Part shown: positions 24,991 to 32,689 of the stretch, piece by piece | How the letters are laid out: each line of letters begins with the position of its first letter | How positions within the stretch are numbered: position 1 is the first letter of the stretch | DNA from: an uncultured Actinomycetes bacterium | Lineage (GTDB): Bacteria > Actinomycetota > Acidimicrobiia > Acidimicrobiales > Microtrichaceae | Assembly (NCBI GenBank): GCA_903873135.1 | Contig: CAIQNH010000016.1 | Coordinates: forward strand, 1-34,871 | Length of the DNA: 34,871 nucleotides | Direction of reading: 5' to 3' | Made by a program: the position numbers and the translations under genes | Notes under the pieces: model-generated | The model's database searches: none | Told to the model about the DNA's origin: nothing | The model's input: the letters and a program-made list of their open reading frames with translations, nothing else

Positions 24991-26121
24991 TCAGCCGACG
25001 GTGGGCTCGAGCTGCTCGCCCAGGGCGAAGCGCTCGTACTCGTCGCTCGTGTCGACCCAGTCCTCGAACTGGATCACCTCGATCTCCTCGAACCGCCGAC
25101 GGAGCCACTGGTCGTTGCGGTCCAGCAGGCCGAGCTTCTTGCAGTTCGGGACGATCTTGGAGAACAGCATCATCTGGAACAGCTGCCGCGTGGGGGTGCG
25201 CATGACCAGCTCGATGGCCTCCTTGACCGGCACGTCCATGCGCTCCCAGACCTCCTGCTGCATGAAGCGGTCCCGCATGCGCACGGCGGCCTCGAAGGCG
25301 AACTCCTGACGCTCGAGCATCTCGGCGTCCGACAGCTGCTCGTAGTACTCCTTGAGGGACAGCACGCCGAAGGCCACGTGGCGGGCCTCGTCGCTCATGA
25401 CGTAGCGGAGCAGCTGCTTGAGGAGCGGCTCGGTCGTCATCTGGTGCATGAAGCCGAAGGCCGCCAGCGCCAGGCCCTCCACCATGATCTGCATGCCCAG
25501 GTAGGTCATGTCCCAACGGCTGTCGGCCACGATGTCGTCGAGCAGCATCTTGAGGTGGGCGTTGACCGGGTAGTAGCCCGACAGCTTGGTGTCGAGGTAC
25601 TTGGCGAAGACCTCGACGTGGCGGGCCTCGTCCATCACCTGCGTCGACGCGTAGTACTTGGCGTCGATCCACGGCACGGTCTCCACGATCTTGGCGGTGC
25701 AGATGAGCGCACCCTGCTCACCGTGCATGAACTGGCTGAGGGTCCAGTTCTGGGACTCGATGCCGAGCTTGATCCACTGCTGCTCGGTCCAGGACTCGAA
25801 CGGCGTCCCGGTCACGTCGAAGTCCGCCAGCCCGAGCCCCTGCGCAGCGTTCTGCTCGGCGTTGACCACCACGAGCTGCTCCTGGTCGACCGGCGTGTCC
25901 CAGGGCAGGTCGGTCTCGCCGTTCCACATGGAGACCTTGGCCTTCTCGTACAGCTTGTCCAGCGCCGGGCGCTCACCCTTGGTGTAGTCCCACGTGAAGA
26001 TCGCCTCCGCGTGCTGGGCGACCGTGGAGATCACGGCGTCCCGGTCCGAGTTGGTCACCGCGAGGATGGCCTCGAGGTCGTTGACGTCGTCCCGGCCGAT
26101 CAGCTCGTCGTAGGTGCTCAT
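24991..26121 (-). CDS. ferritin-like diiron carboxylate protein (oxygenase candidate)
   Basis: This 376-residue, mostly helical protein has a complete diiron ligand set in two half-sites: E135 (FMHGEQGAL) with E165-x-x-H168 (DEARHVEVF), and E215 (MVEGLAL) with E245-x-x-H248 (SDEARHVAFG). The pattern is that of ferritin-like enzymes such as acyl-carrier desaturases, AurF-type N-oxygenases and R2-like oxidases. Which reaction it runs cannot be read from the motifs. The start ATG 26121 overlaps the TetR1 stop (ATGA) and has GGAGGAG 5 nt upstream, so it is co-transcribed with TetR1, the likely controller of its expression. No ferredoxin or reductase lies next to it. Confidence 0.8.
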   Translation of the reverse strand: MSTYDELIGRDDVNDLEAILAVTNSDRDAVISTVAQHAEAIFTWDYTKGERPALDKLYEKAKVSMWNGETDLPWDTPVDQEQLVVVNAEQNAAQGLGLADFDVTGTPFESWTEQQWIKLGIESQNWTLSQFMHGEQGALICTAKIVETVPWIDAKYYASTQVMDEARHVEVFAKYLDTKLSGYYPVNAHLKMLLDDIVADSRWDMTYLGMQIMVEGLALAAFGFMHQMTTEPLLKQLLRYVMSDEARHVAFGVLSLKEYYEQLSDAEMLERQEFAFEAAVRMRDRFMQQEVWERMDVPVKEAIELVMRTPTRQLFQMMLFSKIVPNCKKLGLLDRNDQWLRRRFEEIEVIQFEDWVDTSDEYERFALGEQLEPTVG

Positions 26122-26816
26122 GGTCGCTCCTCCTCCGGCGCGGTGCCCGCCGGTTGGGTGGTTGGGTGGGTGGTTGGCTGGTTGGTACGAACGGCCTGCC
26201 GGTCGAAACCGGGCAGGAGGAACTCGTGGACCAGCGCGCCGGCGACGACCGGGTCGCCCAGGTCGTCCTCGGACGGGTCCACGAGGTGCGAGACGATCAG
26301 ACGGGCCGCCCAGACCGAGGCGGCGGCGCCACGCTCGGCCGAACCGGCGAAGGGGGCCAACGCCGGGCCCATGGCGCCGGCGGCGGCGTCGAGGACCTGC
26401 TCGAACCCGCCCAGGGCGAGCTGGGCCTTGATCGAGGCCGGGTCGTGCTCGAGCACGAGCTGGAGGGCCTCGTCGTCGGACAGGAAGCGTCGGGCCGAGA
26501 CGATCGCCCGGGTCAGGGCGTCGCCCAGGTCGGTGGCGTCGGCCACGTCCTCGGCCAGCGACTCGGCCAGCTGGGTGACCATGCGGTGCGTGCCGGCCTG
26601 GACCATGGCCGACTTCCCGCCGGGGAAGAGCCGGTACAGCGTCGCCCGGGAGATCCCGGCGGCCCGGGCCACGTCGTCCACGGTGGTCTTGGCGAGGCCC
26701 CACCGCAGCACGCACTCCTCGAGGGCGTCGAGCGCCCGGTCGGCCGGGGAGGTGGCGGCCTCGGGCCGCTCCCCCGCCCGTTGGGCGGTGCTCCTCGTCC
26801 CCGCTGCGACTGCCAC
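26118..26816 (-). CDS. TetR-family regulator 1, coupled to the diiron gene
   Basis: This 232-residue repressor-type protein has a helix-turn-helix at about residues 25-70 (CVLRWGLAKTTVDDVARAAG, ISRATLYRLFPGGKSAM), followed by a helical ligand-binding domain. The C-terminal tail is low-complexity, TNQPTTHPTTQPAGTAPEEERP, and is encoded by a G-rich GGTTGG run. GTG 26816 has TATTGT 7 nt upstream, with TTGCCA 18 bp further. Its stop overlaps the diiron gene's start, so it probably autoregulates that pair. It resembles the next upstream TetR, sharing a R-x-F-PGG-K/R segment after the recognition helix. Ligand unknown. Confidence 0.85.
   Translation of the reverse strand: MAVAAGTRSTAQRAGERPEAATSPADRALDALEECVLRWGLAKTTVDDVARAAGISRATLYRLFPGGKSAMVQAGTHRMVTQLAESLAEDVADATDLGDALTRAIVSARRFLSDDEALQLVLEHDPASIKAQLALGGFEQVLDAAAGAMGPALAPFAGSAERGAAASVWAARLIVSHLVDPSEDDLGDPVVAGALVHEFLLPGFDRQAVRTNQPTTHPTTQPAGTAPEEERP
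26152..26185 (+). repeat. GGTTGG-rich run with G-quadruplex potential
   Basis: The plus strand has a 34-nt G/T run made of GGTTGGG, TGGTTGGG, TGGG, TGGTTGG and GGTTGG blocks with one C. It encodes the low-complexity tail of TetR1 on the opposite strand. The spacing allows two- or three-tier G-quadruplexes on the template strand of TetR1 transcription. Confidence 0.6.
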
Positions 26817-26823
26817 GGGTGGA

Positions 26824-26853
26824 ACAATAAGACCGATTCTGTCTCAGTGGCAA
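26824..26853 (-). promoter_or_regulatory. TetR1/diiron promoter, TTGCCA-18-TATTGT
   Basis: Minus-strand TTGCCA (26853-26848), 18 bp, then TATTGT (26829-26824), 7 nt from the GTG. It is the most consensus-like promoter here and lies in an AT-rich patch. The spacer contains GAGAC and GTCTT flanking 7 nt, a weak candidate for a TetR operator. Confidence 0.55.
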
Positions 26854-26906
26854 CGCACCCCCGGTGTGACATCCGCCCGGTCCACGCCCCCGCCGCGGCC
26901 CCGCCC

Positions 26907-26934
26907 CGCCCCCACAGCGCCGCCCCCACAGCGC
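26907..26934. repeat. two tandem 14-bp repeats
   Basis: CGCCCCCACAGCGC occurs twice in direct succession (26907-26920, 26921-26934), in the noncoding gap upstream of TetR1. No function is evident. The gap 26817-27109 (293 bp) holds this repeat, the promoter and the 16-bp array, and no gene. Confidence 0.7.
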
Positions 26935-26995
26935 CGCCCGCCGGCCGAGCACGTTCTCGGTGCACGGGACCATCCCGCCGGTGGGTGGCTGCACC

Positions 26996-27090
26996 GGGAA
27001 CGGTGGGGAGCGGGACCGGTGGGGAGCGGGAACGGTGGGGAGCGGGAACGGTGGGGAGCGGGAACGGTGGGAGCGGGAACGGTGGGGAGC
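26996..27090. repeat. six-copy 16-bp G-rich tandem array
   Basis: The unit GGGAACGGTGGGGAGC repeats six times: 26996, 27012 (one change, ACC for AAC), 27028, 27044, 27060 (15 bp, one G missing) and 27075. It lies 19 bp past the TetR2 stop. G runs of three and four bases allow G-quadruplexes on the plus strand. It is not in a credible reading frame. Confidence 0.9.
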
Positions 27091-27109
27091 GGGTGCGGGA
27101 CCGGGCCGC

Positions 27110-27724
27110 TCAGGCCGGGACGATCCCACCGATGAACTGGGTCCGGACCAGCTCGGTGGTGGCCGCCCGGTCGGTGAGGTCGACCCCGGCCGGACTGGCC
27201 AGGACCGACAGCGTCATCCGGGTCAGGTAGTCCGCCGACCGGTCCAGGTCGACTCCGGGTCGGAGTCGACCGGCGGCGTCCTCGACCTCGAGCAACCGGC
27301 GCAACTCGGCGCGGATCACGCCGTGGACCAGCGGGTCCGACGGCCGCAGGGCGGCGGCGAGCTCCTCGACCTCGGCGTCGTCGACCCCCGCCATGATCCG
27401 GCTGCGGGCGATCATGTCGGCCCCGACGACGAGTCCGGTCACGAGCCGGTCCTCGAGCGTCGCCTCGCCGGCCACCGCCCGACCGACCCGCCGCCAGAAC
27501 CGGGCCACCTCCCAGGTGGCCGCCTCCTGCACGAGCTGATCGCGGCCACCCGGGAACTGCCGGTAGATGGTGGTCCGGGACACCTCGGCCTCGGCGGCGA
27601 CGTCCTCGAGGGAGAACCGGCGCACCCCGCTGCGCTCGGCGCAGCGGACGGCGGCCGCCATGATCCGGTCACGGACGCTCGGCACGGCACCGGTCCGACC
27701 CGAGCGGCGCTCCGACTCAGCCAC
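27110..27724 (-). CDS. TetR-family regulator 2
   Basis: This 204-residue regulator has a helix-turn-helix at about residues 20-60 (CAERSGVRRFSLEDVAAEAE, VSRTTIYRQFPGGRDQL), then a helical sensor domain ending RTQFIGGIVPA. GTG 27724 overlaps the end of the SURF1 gene by 8 bp, so it is co-transcribed with SURF1. GTGs further upstream in the same frame are possible but would lie deeper in SURF1. It looks like a diverged paralogue of TetR1: similar HTH and the same PGG-K/R after Y-R-x-F. The 16-bp tandem array follows its stop. Target and ligand unknown. Confidence 0.8.
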   Translation of the reverse strand: MAESERRSGRTGAVPSVRDRIMAAAVRCAERSGVRRFSLEDVAAEAEVSRTTIYRQFPGGRDQLVQEAATWEVARFWRRVGRAVAGEATLEDRLVTGLVVGADMIARSRIMAGVDDAEVEELAAALRPSDPLVHGVIRAELRRLLEVEDAAGRLRPGVDLDRSADYLTRMTLSVLASPAGVDLTDRAATTELVRTQFIGGIVPA

Positions 27725-28586
27725 CGACCGGTCCCGCTCCCCCACGGCCCGACCCGACCGACCCGGCGTCCGGCCCGACGACGGCCGTCGGCAGGTCCGG
27801 GTGGTCCTCGACCGGCGTCTCACCACCCGCGGCCCGGGTCCGGGCGTGACGGCGGAGCACGAGCACGTAGCCGCCGGCCGCGATCGCAGCGAAGAGCCAC
27901 CACTGGAACATGTACGAGAGGTTCTGCCCGGCGGAGGGCACCTCCACGCCGACCCGGGACGGCAGCGGGGTCGTCTGCTTCGGGTCCTGTGCGTCCAGCA
28001 GCACCCAGCCCGGGAGCAGCGGGTACGGCAGCTGCTCGCCGAGGCGTTCCAGGTCGACCCGGTTCAGGATCTCGAGACGCCCACCCGCCGGGTCGGCGGC
28101 GCCGAGGGAGCTCCTGGTCTGGTTGAGCTGCACCACCCCGGCGATCTCGACGGGGCCACCCGGGGGCTCGGCGCCGGGGAACGGCGGTCCGGGCGGGTCC
28201 GGGTCCACGTTCGGGATCCAACCCCGCACCACGGCGAGCGCGTTCCCGTCCGCCAGCACGAGCGGGGTGAGCACCCACGAGCCCGGCGCACCGTTGTAGG
28301 ACCGGTTCCGCACGTACACCTCGCCCGCCGGGTCCCACGTCCCGGCGGCGCTGACCCGGGTGAACTCGGCCGACGCCGGCAGGTCACCCACCGCCGTCGC
28401 CGGCGGCAGGACCTCCTCCACCGGCACCGGCGGGGACGACGCCCGGGCCTCGATCCGCTCGAGCCGGTCGGTCTCCTCCAGGTAGCGGGCGCGCTGCCAG
28501 AGACCGAGGCCGACCAGCACGCACACGCCCACCACCACCAGCACGTGGCTGACGATCCAGGCAGGCCGACGGGCGAAGTCCCACAC
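27717..28586 (-). CDS. SURF1-family cytochrome oxidase assembly protein
   Basis: This 289-residue membrane protein has an N-terminal TM helix (residues 12-30, WIVSHVLVVVGVCVLVGLGLW) followed by QRARYLEE, an outer domain with VRNRSYNGAPGSWVLTPL and VVRGWIPN, and a C-terminal TM (about 232-250) after SYMFQWWLFAAIA. This two-TM layout and the W-Q-x-x-R and R-G-W motifs define SURF1, which helps haem a insertion into aa3-type cytochrome c oxidase. GTG 28586 has TAGGGT 8 nt upstream. No oxidase subunit gene is in the window. It is divergent from the heliorhodopsin, 63 bp apart. Confidence 0.9.
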   Translation of the reverse strand: MWDFARRPAWIVSHVLVVVGVCVLVGLGLWQRARYLEETDRLERIEARASSPPVPVEEVLPPATAVGDLPASAEFTRVSAAGTWDPAGEVYVRNRSYNGAPGSWVLTPLVLADGNALAVVRGWIPNVDPDPPGPPFPGAEPPGGPVEIAGVVQLNQTRSSLGAADPAGGRLEILNRVDLERLGEQLPYPLLPGWVLLDAQDPKQTTPLPSRVGVEVPSAGQNLSYMFQWWLFAAIAAGGYVLVLRRHARTRAAGGETPVEDHPDLPTAVVGPDAGSVGSGRGGAGPVGG

Positions 28587-28594
28587 GCACGCTC

Positions 28595-28600
28595 ACCCTA
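28595..28600 (-). promoter_or_regulatory. -10 box TAGGGT before SURF1
   Basis: Minus-strand TAGGGT is 8 nt from the SURF1 GTG. It shares the 63-bp divergent region with the heliorhodopsin promoter. Confidence 0.45.
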
Positions 28601-28637
28601 CGTGGAGCGGGTCGCCGTCACGGCGGCACCCCGGGCG

Positions 28638-28643
28638 TAGGTT
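28638..28643 (+). promoter_or_regulatory. -10 box TAGGTT before the heliorhodopsin
   Basis: Plus-strand TAGGTT lies 6 nt before GTG 28650, which predicts a leaderless transcript. Confidence 0.5.
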
Positions 28644-28649
28644 GGCCCC

Positions 28650-29441
28650 GTGGACACCGACACGACACCCGACACACCGGTCCCGGCCGTCGACACCTCC
28701 CCGACCCGTCTGCGCGGGCTGTGGAGGTGGAACGTCGGGCTGACCGTGCTGCACGCGGCCCAGGCGGTGCTCATCCTCGTGCTGAGCGGCGGGTTCGCCA
28801 TCACGATCACCTCGACGTTCCCCACCGGTCCCCCGGGGAGCAGGCTGAGCGCGCCACAGCCGCTGTTCGACCTGCCGATCGGGATCGCCGTCGCAGTGTT
28901 CCTGGCGCTCGCCGCGCTGGACCACCTCCTCACCGCCACGGTCGGGCGAGCCACCTACGAGGCCGACCTCGGCCGAGGGATCAACCGCTTCCGTTGGGTG
29001 GAGTACTCCCTCAGCGCGTCGCTGATGATCGTGCTCATCGCCGCGTACTCGGGCGTCACCGACATCACCGGTGTGGTCACGATCGTCGGGGCGAACGTCG
29101 CCATGATCCTGTTCGGCTGGGTCCAGGAACGGACCAACCCACCGGGCCGCACCTCCACGAGCATGCAGGCGTTCTGGTTCGGCACCATCGCCGGCCTCGC
29201 CCCGTGGGTCGCCATCTGGATCAACGTGGTCGGCGCCGAGACGGTGCCCGGGTTCGTGTACGGGATCGTCGTGACCGAGCAGGTGCTGTTCTTCAGCTTC
29301 GGACTCAACCAGTGGCTGCAGTACCGCCGGGTCGGCCGCTGGTCCGACTACCTCTTCGGCGAGCGGACGTACCTGGTGCTCAGCCTGGTGGCCAAGTCCC
29401 TGCTCGCCTGGCAGATCTACGGCGGGTCGCTCGCCAACTGA
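28650..29441 (+). CDS. heliorhodopsin
   Basis: This 263-residue seven-helix retinal protein has the heliorhodopsin family signatures: [18 protein letters not shown] with the counterion E118, [49 protein letters not shown] with the retinal-binding lysine K249, and LAWQIYGG at the end. H35, H92 and S245, matching the conserved histidines and the serine near the retinal in characterised members, are also present. Heliorhodopsins have an inverted topology (N-terminus inside) and slow photocycles and are not known to be strong pumps; their role is still debated. The GTG start has TAGGTT 6 nt upstream. No retinal synthesis gene (blh, crt) is in the window. It shares a promoter region with SURF1, and its stop lies in a hairpin with the acyl-CoA ligase. 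Confidence 0.95.
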
Positions 29442-29462
29442 GCCGGGGACTCAGTCCCCGGC
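29442..29462. terminator. bidirectional hairpin between heliorhodopsin and acyl-CoA ligase
   Basis: GCCGGGGA (29442-29449) and TCCCCGGC (29455-29462) form a perfect GC-rich 8-bp stem with a 5-nt loop (10 bp if the loop is reduced to one base). The heliorhodopsin stop ends 1 nt upstream, and the ligase stop (TCA, 29451-29453) is inside the loop. Confidence 0.7.
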
Positions 29463-31088
29463 GGTCGGCAGGACGTGGTCGGCGAACCGGTCGCGCAGGT
29501 CCTTCTTGGAGAACTTCCCGACGCTGGTCTTGGGGACCTCGTCGATGAACACCACGTCGTCGGGCAGCCACCACTTGGCGACCCGGCCGTCGAGGAACTC
29601 GAGCAGCTCCTCGGCGCTGAGCTCGGCGTCCGGGGCCACGACCACGCACGCGAGCGGGCGCTCGGACCACTTGGGGTGCGGCACGCCGATCACGGCGGCC
29701 TCGGCCACGGCGGGGTGCGCCATGATCTCGTTCTCGAGCTCGACCGAGCTGATCCACTCCCCGCCGGACTTCACCACGTCCTTGGTGCGGTCGACGATCC
29801 GCACGTAGCCGTCAGGGGTGATGACGGCCACGTCGCCGGTGCGCAGCCACCCGTCGGCGGTGAACGACTCGGGCGATCGGGGGTCGTCGTGGTAGCTCGC
29901 CGTGATCCACGGGCCGGCGGCCTGCAGCTCGCCCCGCTGCTCGCCGTCCCACGGGAGCTCCTCGCCGGTGGCCTGGTCAGCGATCCGCAGCCGCACGCCC
30001 ACGAGCGGCCGGCCCTGTGAGGCCCGCAGGTCGGCGAGCTCGTCCTCGGTGCCGTCGGCCAGCCACGACACCACGTGGGCGACCGAGGCGACCGGACTGG
30101 TCTCGGTCATCCCCCACGCCTGCAGGATCGGCAGTCCGACCTGTTCCCGGTACGCCTCCGACAGCGCCTTCGGCACCGCCGAGCCGCCGCACGGGATCAC
30201 CCGCAGCGACGAGGTGTCGCGTCCGGCGAGCTCCGGGAGGACACCCATCCAGATGGTGGGCACGCCGGCGGCCAGCGTCACCCGCTCCGACTCGATCAAC
30301 CCGGCGAGCGCGGCCGGGACCATGTTCGGTCCGGGCATGACGAGCGTGGACCCCGCGGCCACCCCGGCGTGGGCGAGACCCCAGGCGTTGGCGTGGAACA
30401 TCGGGACCACCGGCAGGATCGTGTCGGACTCCGACACGCCGACCGAGTCGGCGAACATCGCCGCCATCGTGTGCAGGTAGGTGCTGCGGTGGGTGTAGAC
30501 GACGCCCTTCGGGTTGCCGGTGGTGCCCGACGTGTAGCACATCGACGCCGCCCGGAGTTCGTCGTCCACACGGAACTCGGCCGGTTGCTCGGCGGCGACC
30601 AGCGCCTCGTAGTCGAGCAGCTCGACACCGTCGAGGCCCTCCACCTCCACCACGGGTGCGCCGTCCTCCATGACGACGAGGTGACGCACGGTCGAGAACG
30701 TCGGGACGAGCGGACCGAGCAGGCCGAGCAACGACCGGTCCACGAAGATCACCTCGTCCCGGGCGTGCTCCACGATGTAGGTGACCTGCTCCGGGAACAG
30801 CCGGATGTTGAGCGTGTGGAGCACCCTGCCGCTGCACGGCGCTGCGAAGTAGAGCTCCAGGTGCCGGGCGGTGTTCCACGCGAACGTGGCCACGCGTCCG
30901 TCGGCCGAGACGCCGAGGGTGTCGAGCGCGGCGGCCAGCCGCCGGGTCCGGTCGGCCCACTCGCCGTGGGTCACCCGCTCCACCCCGCCGACGGTGGCGG
31001 TGACGATCTCCTTGCGGGGGGAGAGCCGCTCGGCCCGTTCCACGAACCCGTCGAGCGTGAGCGGTCGGTCCTGCATCGTCCCCTGCAC
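29451..31088 (-). CDS. fatty-acyl-CoA ligase
   Basis: This 545-residue ANL enzyme has a medium- or long-chain acyl-CoA synthetase layout. It starts [14 protein letters not shown], the typical N-terminus of actinobacterial fatty-acid CoA ligases. It has [16 protein letters not shown] (P-loop), [23 protein letters not shown] with the ribose-binding Asp, [12 protein letters not shown] and the terminal catalytic lysine in [14 protein letters not shown]. It would form acyl-CoA for lipid synthesis or degradation. GTG 31088 has GGGGGG four bases upstream, as in the exporter at 7731. It ends head-to-head with the heliorhodopsin and starts divergently from the VTT-like gene, with paired boxes in the gap. 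Confidence 0.9.
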
Positions 31089-31134
31089 GTGTCCCCCCGG
31101 TGGACTCGGGGCGGGTCGGACTCGGACCCGCCGG

Positions 31135-31152
31135 TAGCGTGGGCGCAGCGTA
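31135..31152. promoter_or_regulatory. paired boxes TAGCGT (+) and TACGCT (-)
   Basis: Plus TAGCGT (31135-31140) would start a transcript about 52 nt before the VTT-like gene. Minus TACGCT (31152-31147) would give a ligase leader of about 52 nt that includes its GGGGGG ribosome site. The predicted transcripts would overlap at their 5' ends. Weaker than the leaderless boxes. Confidence 0.3.
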
Positions 31153-31198
31153 GGCCCGACCGGACGGTCGACGCCGACCCGAACGACAGCGACCAGCC

Positions 31199-31885
31199 GT
31201 GACCGACGCCGACCCGATCCCCGCCCCAGCCGACCGGCCCTCGTGGTTCCTGCCCGTGGCCGGTGCGGCGATCATCTGCCTGGTCGTCGCCAACAACTTC
31301 GGCAACGTCATCTGGGCGGAGTGGGTGATCGACCAACCGCTCGGACTGCTGGCGCTCAACTCCTCGAACAAGTACCTGCTGGCCACGTCGGTCAACACCG
31401 ACCTGATCCCCGTGCTGGTGATCGCGACGCTCCGGCTGATGGCGCCCGATCCGCTCTTCTACGGGATCGGCTACCTCTACGGCGACCGGGCGCTGCGGTG
31501 GGCGGGCAACGTGTTCCCCGGCATCCAGCCGGTCATCGAGCAGGCCCGTGCCGAGGACGGCTCGTTCCGGTGGCTCATGGCCACGCTCCTGGTGATCATG
31601 CCGAACAACCCGGTCTGCCTGATCGCCGGTGTGGTCCGGGTGCCGTTCAGCCGGTTCCTCACGCTGGCGCTCGTCGGGACCGTCGGACGGATCCTGCTGA
31701 TGCGGGTGATCGGATCGATCTTCGCCGACCAGATCGAGGACCTGCTCGAGGTGGTGGCGCGCTACCAGCGGTGGTTCCTGCTGGCGTCGATCGTGTTCGT
31801 CGTCGGCTACGTGGCGTACCAGGCGACCCGGCGCAAGGGGCTCATCGGCGCCGTCGAGGAGCTCGAGGAGGACCTGGGCGACTGA
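31199..31885 (+). CDS. possible VTT/DedA-like membrane protein
   Basis: This 228-residue protein has about five hydrophobic segments. A segment with YGIGYLYGDRALRW is followed by MPNNPVCLIAGVVRVPF and RFLTLALVGTVGRILLM, which loosely match the VTT (SNARE-associated/DedA) pattern of a G-D/Y-x-x-G motif and a proline-containing re-entrant loop followed by AG-x-x. Such proteins include lipid flippases for undecaprenyl phosphate and phosphatidylethanolamine. The match is weak: the usual R-x-x-P-G-x-R is replaced by MPNNP. GTG 31199 is chosen as the first in frame; no ribosome site is clear. The C-terminus is acidic (EELEEDLGD). Confidence 0.5.
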   Translation: MTDADPIPAPADRPSWFLPVAGAAIICLVVANNFGNVIWAEWVIDQPLGLLALNSSNKYLLATSVNTDLIPVLVIATLRLMAPDPLFYGIGYLYGDRALRWAGNVFPGIQPVIEQARAEDGSFRWLMATLLVIMPNNPVCLIAGVVRVPFSRFLTLALVGTVGRILLMRVIGSIFADQIEDLLEVVARYQRWFLLASIVFVVGYVAYQATRRKGLIGAVEELEEDLGD

Positions 31886-31904
31886 GCGCCGTCGGAGAGC
31901 TCAG
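31882..31904. terminator. inverted repeat around convergent stops
   Basis: CTGAGC (31882-31887) and GCTCAG (31899-31904) flank an 11-nt loop. Each arm holds a stop codon (VTT-like TGA; dapB TCA). It is shorter than the repeats at 2358 and 29442. Confidence 0.35.
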
Positions 31905-32689
31905 AGGCCGAGCAGGGCGTCGAGCCCGACGGTCACACCGGGTCGGTCCGCCACCTGCTTCACCGCCAGCAGGACGCCCGGCATGAAGCTCGTCCGGTCG
32001 ATCGAGTCGTGCCGGATGCTGAGCGTCTGTCCGGTGGTGCCCAACAGCACCTCCTGGTGCGCCACGAGCCCCCGGAGCCGGATCGAGTGGACCCGGATGC
32101 CGGCGGGGCCGTCGCCGCCACGGGCCCCGTCGACGACCTCGGCCGTGGTCGGGTCCGGCGTCCACTCCCCCGACGCCTCGGCCATCCGCTGCACCGTCAG
32201 CATGGCCGTGCCCGACGGGGCGTCGACCTTGTGCTCGTGGTGGAGCTCGATGATCTCGGCGGAGTCGAAGTACGGAGCGGCCAGGGCGGCGAAGTGCATC
32301 ATGAGCACCGCACCGATGGCGAAGTTGGGAGCGATCACGCAGTTGGAACGGGTGAACTCGGCGGTGAAGCGCTCCAGGTCGGCGTCGGTGAACCCGGTGG
32401 TGCCGACCACGGCGTGGATCCCGGAGGCGGCCAGCACCCCGAGGGTCTCGCAGCACGCCGAGCGCTCGGTGAAGTCGACCGCCACGTCCACGCCCGCCTC
32501 GACCATCGCCGCGCCGTCGCGGGAGAACTTCAGCTCCGCGTCCACACCGATCACGGTCCGCAGGTCGAGGCCCGAGTAGTGCGGGTCGACGGCGGCGACG
32601 AGCTCGACCTCCGGGTCGGCGACCACGGCCTCGCACACGGTCGACCCCATGCGGCCACCCGCTCCGAAGACTCCGACCCTGATCGTCAC
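31901..32689 (-). CDS. dapB: 4-hydroxy-tetrahydrodipicolinate reductase
   Basis: This 262-residue NAD(P)H-dependent reductase performs the second step of the lysine/diaminopimelate pathway, using the DapA product. The N-terminal nucleotide-binding motif is VGVFGAGGRMG (residues 5-15). The catalytic and substrate segment ELHHEHKVDAPSGTAM includes the catalytic His and Lys and the substrate-binding SGT. VVGTTGF follows the cofactor site. Length is typical. GTG 32689 has TAGAGT 6 nt upstream and no ribosome site, so its own leaderless promoter is likely. It follows a crotonase gene by 34 nt and converges with the VTT-like gene. Confidence 0.95.
   Translation of the reverse strand: MTIRVGVFGAGGRMGSTVCEAVVADPEVELVAAVDPHYSGLDLRTVIGVDAELKFSRDGAAMVEAGVDVAVDFTERSACCETLGVLAASGIHAVVGTTGFTDADLERFTAEFTRSNCVIAPNFAIGAVLMMHFAALAAPYFDSAEIIELHHEHKVDAPSGTAMLTVQRMAEASGEWTPDPTTAEVVDGARGGDGPAGIRVHSIRLRGLVAHQEVLLGTTGQTLSIRHDSIDRTSFMPGVLLAVKQVADRPGVTVGLDALLGL

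Follow-up and report, generated by a model that had tools for sequence, protein, structure and literature searches.

The window analysed here, a stretch of 34,871 nucleotides from an uncultured Actinomycetes bacterium, carries a heliorhodopsin gene (HeR) that diverges from a gene for the cytochrome oxidase assembly protein SURF1 (Table 1). The question raised by this arrangement is whether the two genes belong together in function or only in place. A sequence-only reading of the locus had considered a joint signal for light and respiration possible. Comparison with related genomes points to another origin: an insertion of HeR very probably turned two independent genes into neighbours, their placement being accidental and not the mark of a circuit between light and respiration. 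The HeR-SURF1 pair as such is real, is specific to one genus among the genomes searched, and was not found in the literature searched.

Table 1. Features of the heliorhodopsin locus and its surroundings (positions in the window)
Feature	Position	Strand	Remarks	Basis
Row downstream of SURF1: TetR, TetR, AurF-like	24991..27826	-		ORFs, Pfam, family comparison
SURF1 family protein (cytochrome oxidase assembly)	27717..28586	-	GTG start	ORF and profiles
Divergent HeR/SURF1 spacer, 63 bp	28587..28649		Equal length in 5/5 genus genomes	
TAGGGT, likely leaderless -10 box of SURF1	28595..28600	-	8 nt before GTG	
TAGGTT, likely leaderless -10 box of HeR	28638..28643	+	6 nt before GTG	
Heliorhodopsin (HeR) gene	28650..29441	+	GTG start, 263 aa, complete, 48C12-like	ORF and profile matches
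Hairpin, 9-bp arms, between convergent HeR and ligase	29442..29462		Ligase stop in loop, no T-run	
AMP-binding acyl-CoA ligase	29451..31088	-	Directly upstream of SURF1 in relatives that lack HeR here	
Row, other side: VTT-domain protein (+), dapB (-)	31199..32689			Pfam, family comparison

The protein had been assigned to the heliorhodopsins from its sequence, and profile searches bore this out, with full-length coverage and 326.8 bits against Pfam family PF18761 (cut-off 26.7, E 9e-98) and a score of 273 against the NCBIfam equivalog NF038020 (cut-off 100). By sequence alignment, the 48C12-type chains 9ljj, 6su3 and 6uh3 come closest among solved structures. The residues H35, H92, E118, S245 and K249, which had been singled out as those of characterised heliorhodopsins, all align with the matching residues of the 48C12 chain, namely H23, H80, E107, S237 and K241. 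We take K241 to be the Schiff-base lysine, E107 the counterion glutamate, and H23 and H80 the histidine pair, with S237 as the serine of this set. In the accessible part of PMC9726877, Glu107 of 48C12 HeR is described as an acceptor near the Schiff base. Pairwise dN/dS values of HeR, calculated for ten pairs from five genomes of the genus, range from 0.08 to 0.14 (SURF1, 0.21–0.36); HeR is under purifying selection, and hence has been kept functional. Most likely, it is a functional photoreceptor of the 48C12 type encoded by a single gene, and as such would bind retinal and sense light. Genes of the phytoene synthase family were found in five of six genus genomes and in seven of 13 genomes searched, RPE65-type oxygenases were present in all 13 genomes searched, and supply of the chromophore appears plausible. 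A search for Blh-type retinal synthesis matched none of the 33 family genomes, but matched no control genome either. The window genome (G000), which is 98% complete, contains a single HeR and no match to a type-1 rhodopsin; its congener G028 possesses a type-1 rhodopsin (G028:C33:18248-18922) besides HeR.

Assignment of the divergent neighbour is based on a match of 129.6 bits to SURF1 family PF02104 (cut-off 23.4); the score obtained with the NCBIfam model SURF1_Mycobac, 184.8, is slightly below its cut-off of 190. The longest open reading frame of the adjacent TetR gene (27110-27826) overlaps the end of SURF1. No oxidase gene was present among the eight window proteins scanned by Pfam. Within the row from 24991 to 32689, SURF1, as far as the proteins scanned indicate, stands apart from oxidase genes and is accompanied by TetR regulators and an AurF-like oxygenase. 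At its other end, HeR converges with the acyl-CoA ligase gene, as had been noted from the sequence, with 9 bp between the two stop codons. The hairpin located there has a predicted folding energy of -21.9 kcal/mol (z -3.5) on the plus strand and of -19.6 kcal/mol (z -3.6) on the minus strand and is a possible bidirectional terminator; a terminator scan that required a T-run found none. The HeR-ligase gaps of the other genus members differ from that of the window in length and sequence.

In Actinobacteria, leaderless genes with a TANNNT box before the start codon are known. Each of the divergent genes was found to have such a box of its own, as stated by the sequence-only reading, which had also described the 63-bp divergent spacer correctly. 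A TANNNT box recurs at the identical distance before HeR in the four other genomes of the genus, and all five genomes show a TANNNT box at both starts, whereas of 4382 start codons encountered at random in the loci compared, only 29 (0.7%) are preceded by a box at 5–9 nt. Because the boxes recur at both starts in five genomes against this background, their occurrence, judged from sequence comparison, is beyond chance. They presumably act as promoters, and the transcripts of both genes would be leaderless.

Within the family, HeR was detected in 16 and SURF1 in 28 of 33 genomes. The two genes adjoin each other in divergent orientation in each of the five genus genomes with both genes (G000, G028, G029, G030 and G031); the sixth, G027, which is 66% complete, has neither. 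Two HeR matches were obtained in G030, on contig ends (L046 and L047) that overlap by 588 bp with 567/588 identical positions (96%); rather than as two HeR genes, these overlapping ends are interpreted as coming from two strains binned in a single MAG. Outside the genus, the 11 remaining family genomes with HeR all have SURF1 as well, in every case elsewhere in the genome. For the order, 397 genomes sampled from a larger group were searched; 120 of them gave an HeR match, 110 of these outside the family. Of these 110, 107 entered the SURF1 search, G323, G348 and G378 having been left out with HeR matches below the Pfam cut-off; 84 had SURF1 as well and 23 gave no SURF1 match. Adjacency was found in none of the 84 genomes with both genes. 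In six of them (G034, G038, G119, G163, G236 and G341), both genes share a contig but are separated by at least 70 kb, and in 78 they are on different contigs, which does not strictly rule out adjacency across a contig end. A further set comprised 80 named HeR loci with flanks of up to 10 kb. With five set aside that come from the genus or from G020, 75 loci remain, 57 of which extend at least 1.5 kb on both sides; in these 75, no SURF1 was found at E 0.01 with a profile built from family SURF1 proteins, which could miss remote forms. The expectation that SURF1 would stand beside heliorhodopsin in related genomes, raised by the sequence-only reading, was thus confirmed inside the genus and failed outside it, in the rest of the family as in the sampled order. 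Among the genomes searched, the pair is restricted to the genus, and neither an extension beyond close relatives nor a repeated origin was found.

The neighbours of HeR change between relatives, as judged from chosen neighbours at five of the 12 loci whose HeRs group with those of the genus (see below) and at five family loci. Pfam families next to HeR at the former comprise aminoacyl-tRNA editing, flavin reductase, solute-binding protein, MarR, LysE, PQ-loop, alpha/beta hydrolase and MIP; open reading frames near HeR at the latter code for Lhr helicase, acyltransferase, sulfatase, amine oxidase, PhyH, DUF3152, a metal-sensing repressor and a SpoIIE/PAS protein. By eye, common neighbours are visible in the sister loci L070/L121, L076/L085, L083/L088 and L087/L092. 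In L088 (8619-10049) and L083 (6916-8382), the gene for a protein of about 480 amino acids immediately precedes HeR in the same orientation; the C-terminus of this protein looks cupredoxin-like by eye (TYTYFCRVHP), and the L088 copy has no Pfam match. An 800-aa GAF-PAS-SpoIIE protein (L058, 737-3136), a neighbour of signalling type, adjoins the HeR fragment of G025, and an amine-oxidase-family protein (L054, 10219-11493) adjoins HeR in G007. The amine-oxidase family also includes carotenoid desaturases. An alpha/beta hydrolase gene directly follows HeR in L087 (4258-5145) and belongs to the frequent neighbour groups given in the accessible part of PMC11109279.

The gene row AurF-TetR-TetR-SURF1-ligase-VTT-dapB recurs across the family. 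Outside the genus, 23 family SURF1 loci keep it wholly or partly, genes being missing or contigs ending in the latter case. None of these loci has HeR in the row, the upstream side of SURF1 being visible in 22 of them (the contig of G019 stops at SURF1). The ligase gene precedes SURF1 on the same strand at 19 of the 23 loci, 18 times within 9–289 nt and once, in the broken copy of G022, at 1880 nt; it was not found upstream of SURF1 in G019, G023, G026 and G032. Since the row exists without HeR at these 23 loci, HeR appears to have been inserted between ligase and SURF1. The loci without HeR also have SURF1 boxes: at 18 of the 23, a TANNNT box lies 5–9 nt before a possible start codon, 17 times at the expected start, and in several of them the box is TAGGGT itself. 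No box was found in G003 and G004, where the end of the ligase gene is 9 and 25 nt away, in G015, which has no start codon at the expected place, in G019, where the locus is cut by the contig end, or in the broken locus of G022. The presence of the box at 18 loci without HeR indicates that the SURF1 promoter is probably older than HeR at this site.

The history that best accommodates these data would start from an ancestral row in which SURF1 directly followed the ligase gene and was already driven by a leaderless promoter of its own. In the ancestor of the genus, HeR would have been inserted between the two in reverse orientation, having carried or gained a leaderless promoter of its own. Two promoters would now stand back to back in 63 bp, each driving its own gene, and the position of HeR beside SURF1 would be an accident kept by ordinary synteny. 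We infer that the direction of change was a gain of HeR at this site and that HeR and SURF1 are not co-regulated.

As to the source of the inserted gene, the five HeRs of the genus form one clade in a quick tree (SH-aLRT 100), which sits in a group of 17 rows (SH-aLRT 91) together with 12 HeRs from outside the genus with Actinomycetota, Acidimicrobiaceae and Ilumatobacteraceae titles. Eight other HeRs of the family fall apart from the genus clade; the partial HeRs of G003, G008 and G025 were left out of the tree. The 15 best matches of the C-terminal HeR fragment of G025 do not include the genus. Horizontal transfer into the genus is favoured by this topology, but we do not claim it as demonstrated, as an approximately unbiased (AU) test in which the genus HeRs were held together with those of G013, G020 and G021 gave no rejection (p-AU 0.153). 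That HeR was inherited within the family and merely moved to its present site is a tenable origin, if a rather unlikely one: the result of the AU test and the occurrence of HeR in about half of the family genomes would agree with it, but the tree groups the genus HeRs with the 12 others and away from their family counterparts, and no HeR match was obtained in G005 (one contig, 95% complete) or G006 (83% complete), genomes of genus g5, which is nearest by path in a row-gene tree whose forks do not resolve. Scans for tRNAs and repeats gave no trace of a mobile element: there is no tRNA in the window and, between 28400 and 29700, only one weak direct and three imperfect inverted repeats, none of which flanks the HeR gene. 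A TANNNT box at leaderless distance before possible starts is present in seven of the 12 HeRs that group with the genus (L070, L080, L084, L085, L092, L105 and L107). In all, ten of 86 HeR rows outside the genus, including these seven and with one locus counted twice, have such a box; as so few do, it may be that HeR did not arrive with its box but acquired it at the site.

It remains to weigh the accidental neighbourhood against readings in which the two genes influence each other through their common spacer. An alignment from five genus genomes has 33 of 63 invariant spacer columns, as compared with 56 of 243 fourfold degenerate columns (38/139 in HeR, 18/104 in SURF1; Fisher p 2e-5), and in a block on the SURF1 side 16 of 20 columns are invariant. 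Taken with the length of 63 bp found in all five genomes, these values are in keeping with two tightly packed core promoters, but would also agree with a light or redox regulator that sets HeR and SURF1 together through the spacer as a control region. However, in four genomes the divergent spacer between the ligase and VTT genes of this row, the one control used, is about equally conserved: 64/127 of its columns are invariant without start codons (69/133 with them), as are 35/63 of the HeR/SURF1 spacer columns in those genomes. Conservation of the spacer thus resembles that of another promoter-bearing spacer, and is not counted as special evidence for a joint operator. Further points against such a regulated pair are the SURF1 box in rows without HeR, the lack of any other searched lineage that joins the two genes, the missing oxidase gene among the window proteins scanned, and the spacer alignment itself, in which no conserved palindrome is evident by eye. 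A regulon search with the conserved block returned, among the matches listed, many with two to three mismatches, more than a reversed control; the block resembles common codons, and no second exact match was among those listed for G028. We consider common regulation of the pair very improbable. Its more far-reaching form, a genus-specific rewiring by which the HeR insertion made SURF1, and with it cytochrome oxidase assembly, subject to a 63-bp control region that depends on light or redox state, with the block as the regulator site, is even harder to credit. The joint signal for light and respiration considered by the sequence-only reading finds no evidence in the neighbourhood, box and spacer comparisons; the confinement of the pair to the genus among the genomes searched, the SURF1 boxes without HeR and the changing neighbours of HeR speak against it.

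What is left in favour of coupling or interference is one feature, the fixed length of the spacer. The HeR/SURF1 spacer is 63 bp throughout, whereas the HeR-ligase gap measures 9, 20, 21, 34 and 42 bp in the five genus genomes, and the ligase/VTT control spacer 110, 112, 126 and 126 bp. Such constancy agrees with back-to-back core promoters in close packing, though a shared operator would explain it as well. Interference between the promoters would need no shared regulator: if the core promoters overlap, polymerase at one would hinder the other, and HeR would mildly tune SURF1. With only 37 bp between the boxes, the implied -35 regions would overlap at about 28615-28623, and the invariant length would be in line with such an overlap; on the other hand, a scan of 28500-29500 with the E. 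coli-type sigma-70 consensus found no site, and in Actinobacteria a -35 element is often dispensable. We regard promoter interference as unlikely, and retain the accidental placement of two independently driven genes as the best explanation.

Functions of heliorhodopsins are commonly inferred from their gene neighbours, and the present locus advises caution towards such guilt by association, as the row with and without HeR illustrates that a single insertion can create a new neighbour, with both genes keeping promoters of their own. The row before and after insertion likewise provides a pair on which promoter interference becomes directly testable.

Among known systems, 48C12 HeR (6su3, 6uh3, 9ljj) is closest to the window protein, with a near full-length match over residues 20-261 (E about 1e-66) and a shared set of Schiff-base lysine, glutamate counterion, two histidines and serine; the N-terminus of the window HeR is unlike that of 48C12. 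The TANNNT motifs 6–8 nt before each start codon liken both genes, at the level of DNA, to leaderless genes of Actinobacteria that have such a box. Literature searches, with supplementary tables outside their scope, found no report that joins heliorhodopsin and SURF1, in agreement with the sequence-only reading, to which this linkage was not familiar from the literature; nor did a literature search find one that joins heliorhodopsin and Microthrixaceae. Heliorhodopsin and cytochrome c oxidase are mentioned together in seven of the papers searched. In the accessible part of PMC11109279, ten frequent neighbour groups of HeR are named, and SURF1, as neighbour in the window, lies outside them. Bulzu et al. 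(PMC8612252), in the part accessible, defined operon candidates as genes on the same strand less than 10 bp apart, so that divergent genes fall outside, and tested domains over 20 genes around HeR, those of two-component systems being significant; the main text contains neither ‘cytochrome’ nor ‘respirat’. HeR also occurs in an operon with glutamine synthetase, according to the accessible part of PMC9529153. This operon and the groups of PMC11109279 share with the window an HeR with a gene close by; in the sources as far as accessible, however, the partner belongs to the same operon, whereas SURF1 in the window is divergent, has a box of its own and would owe its place beside HeR to an insertion.
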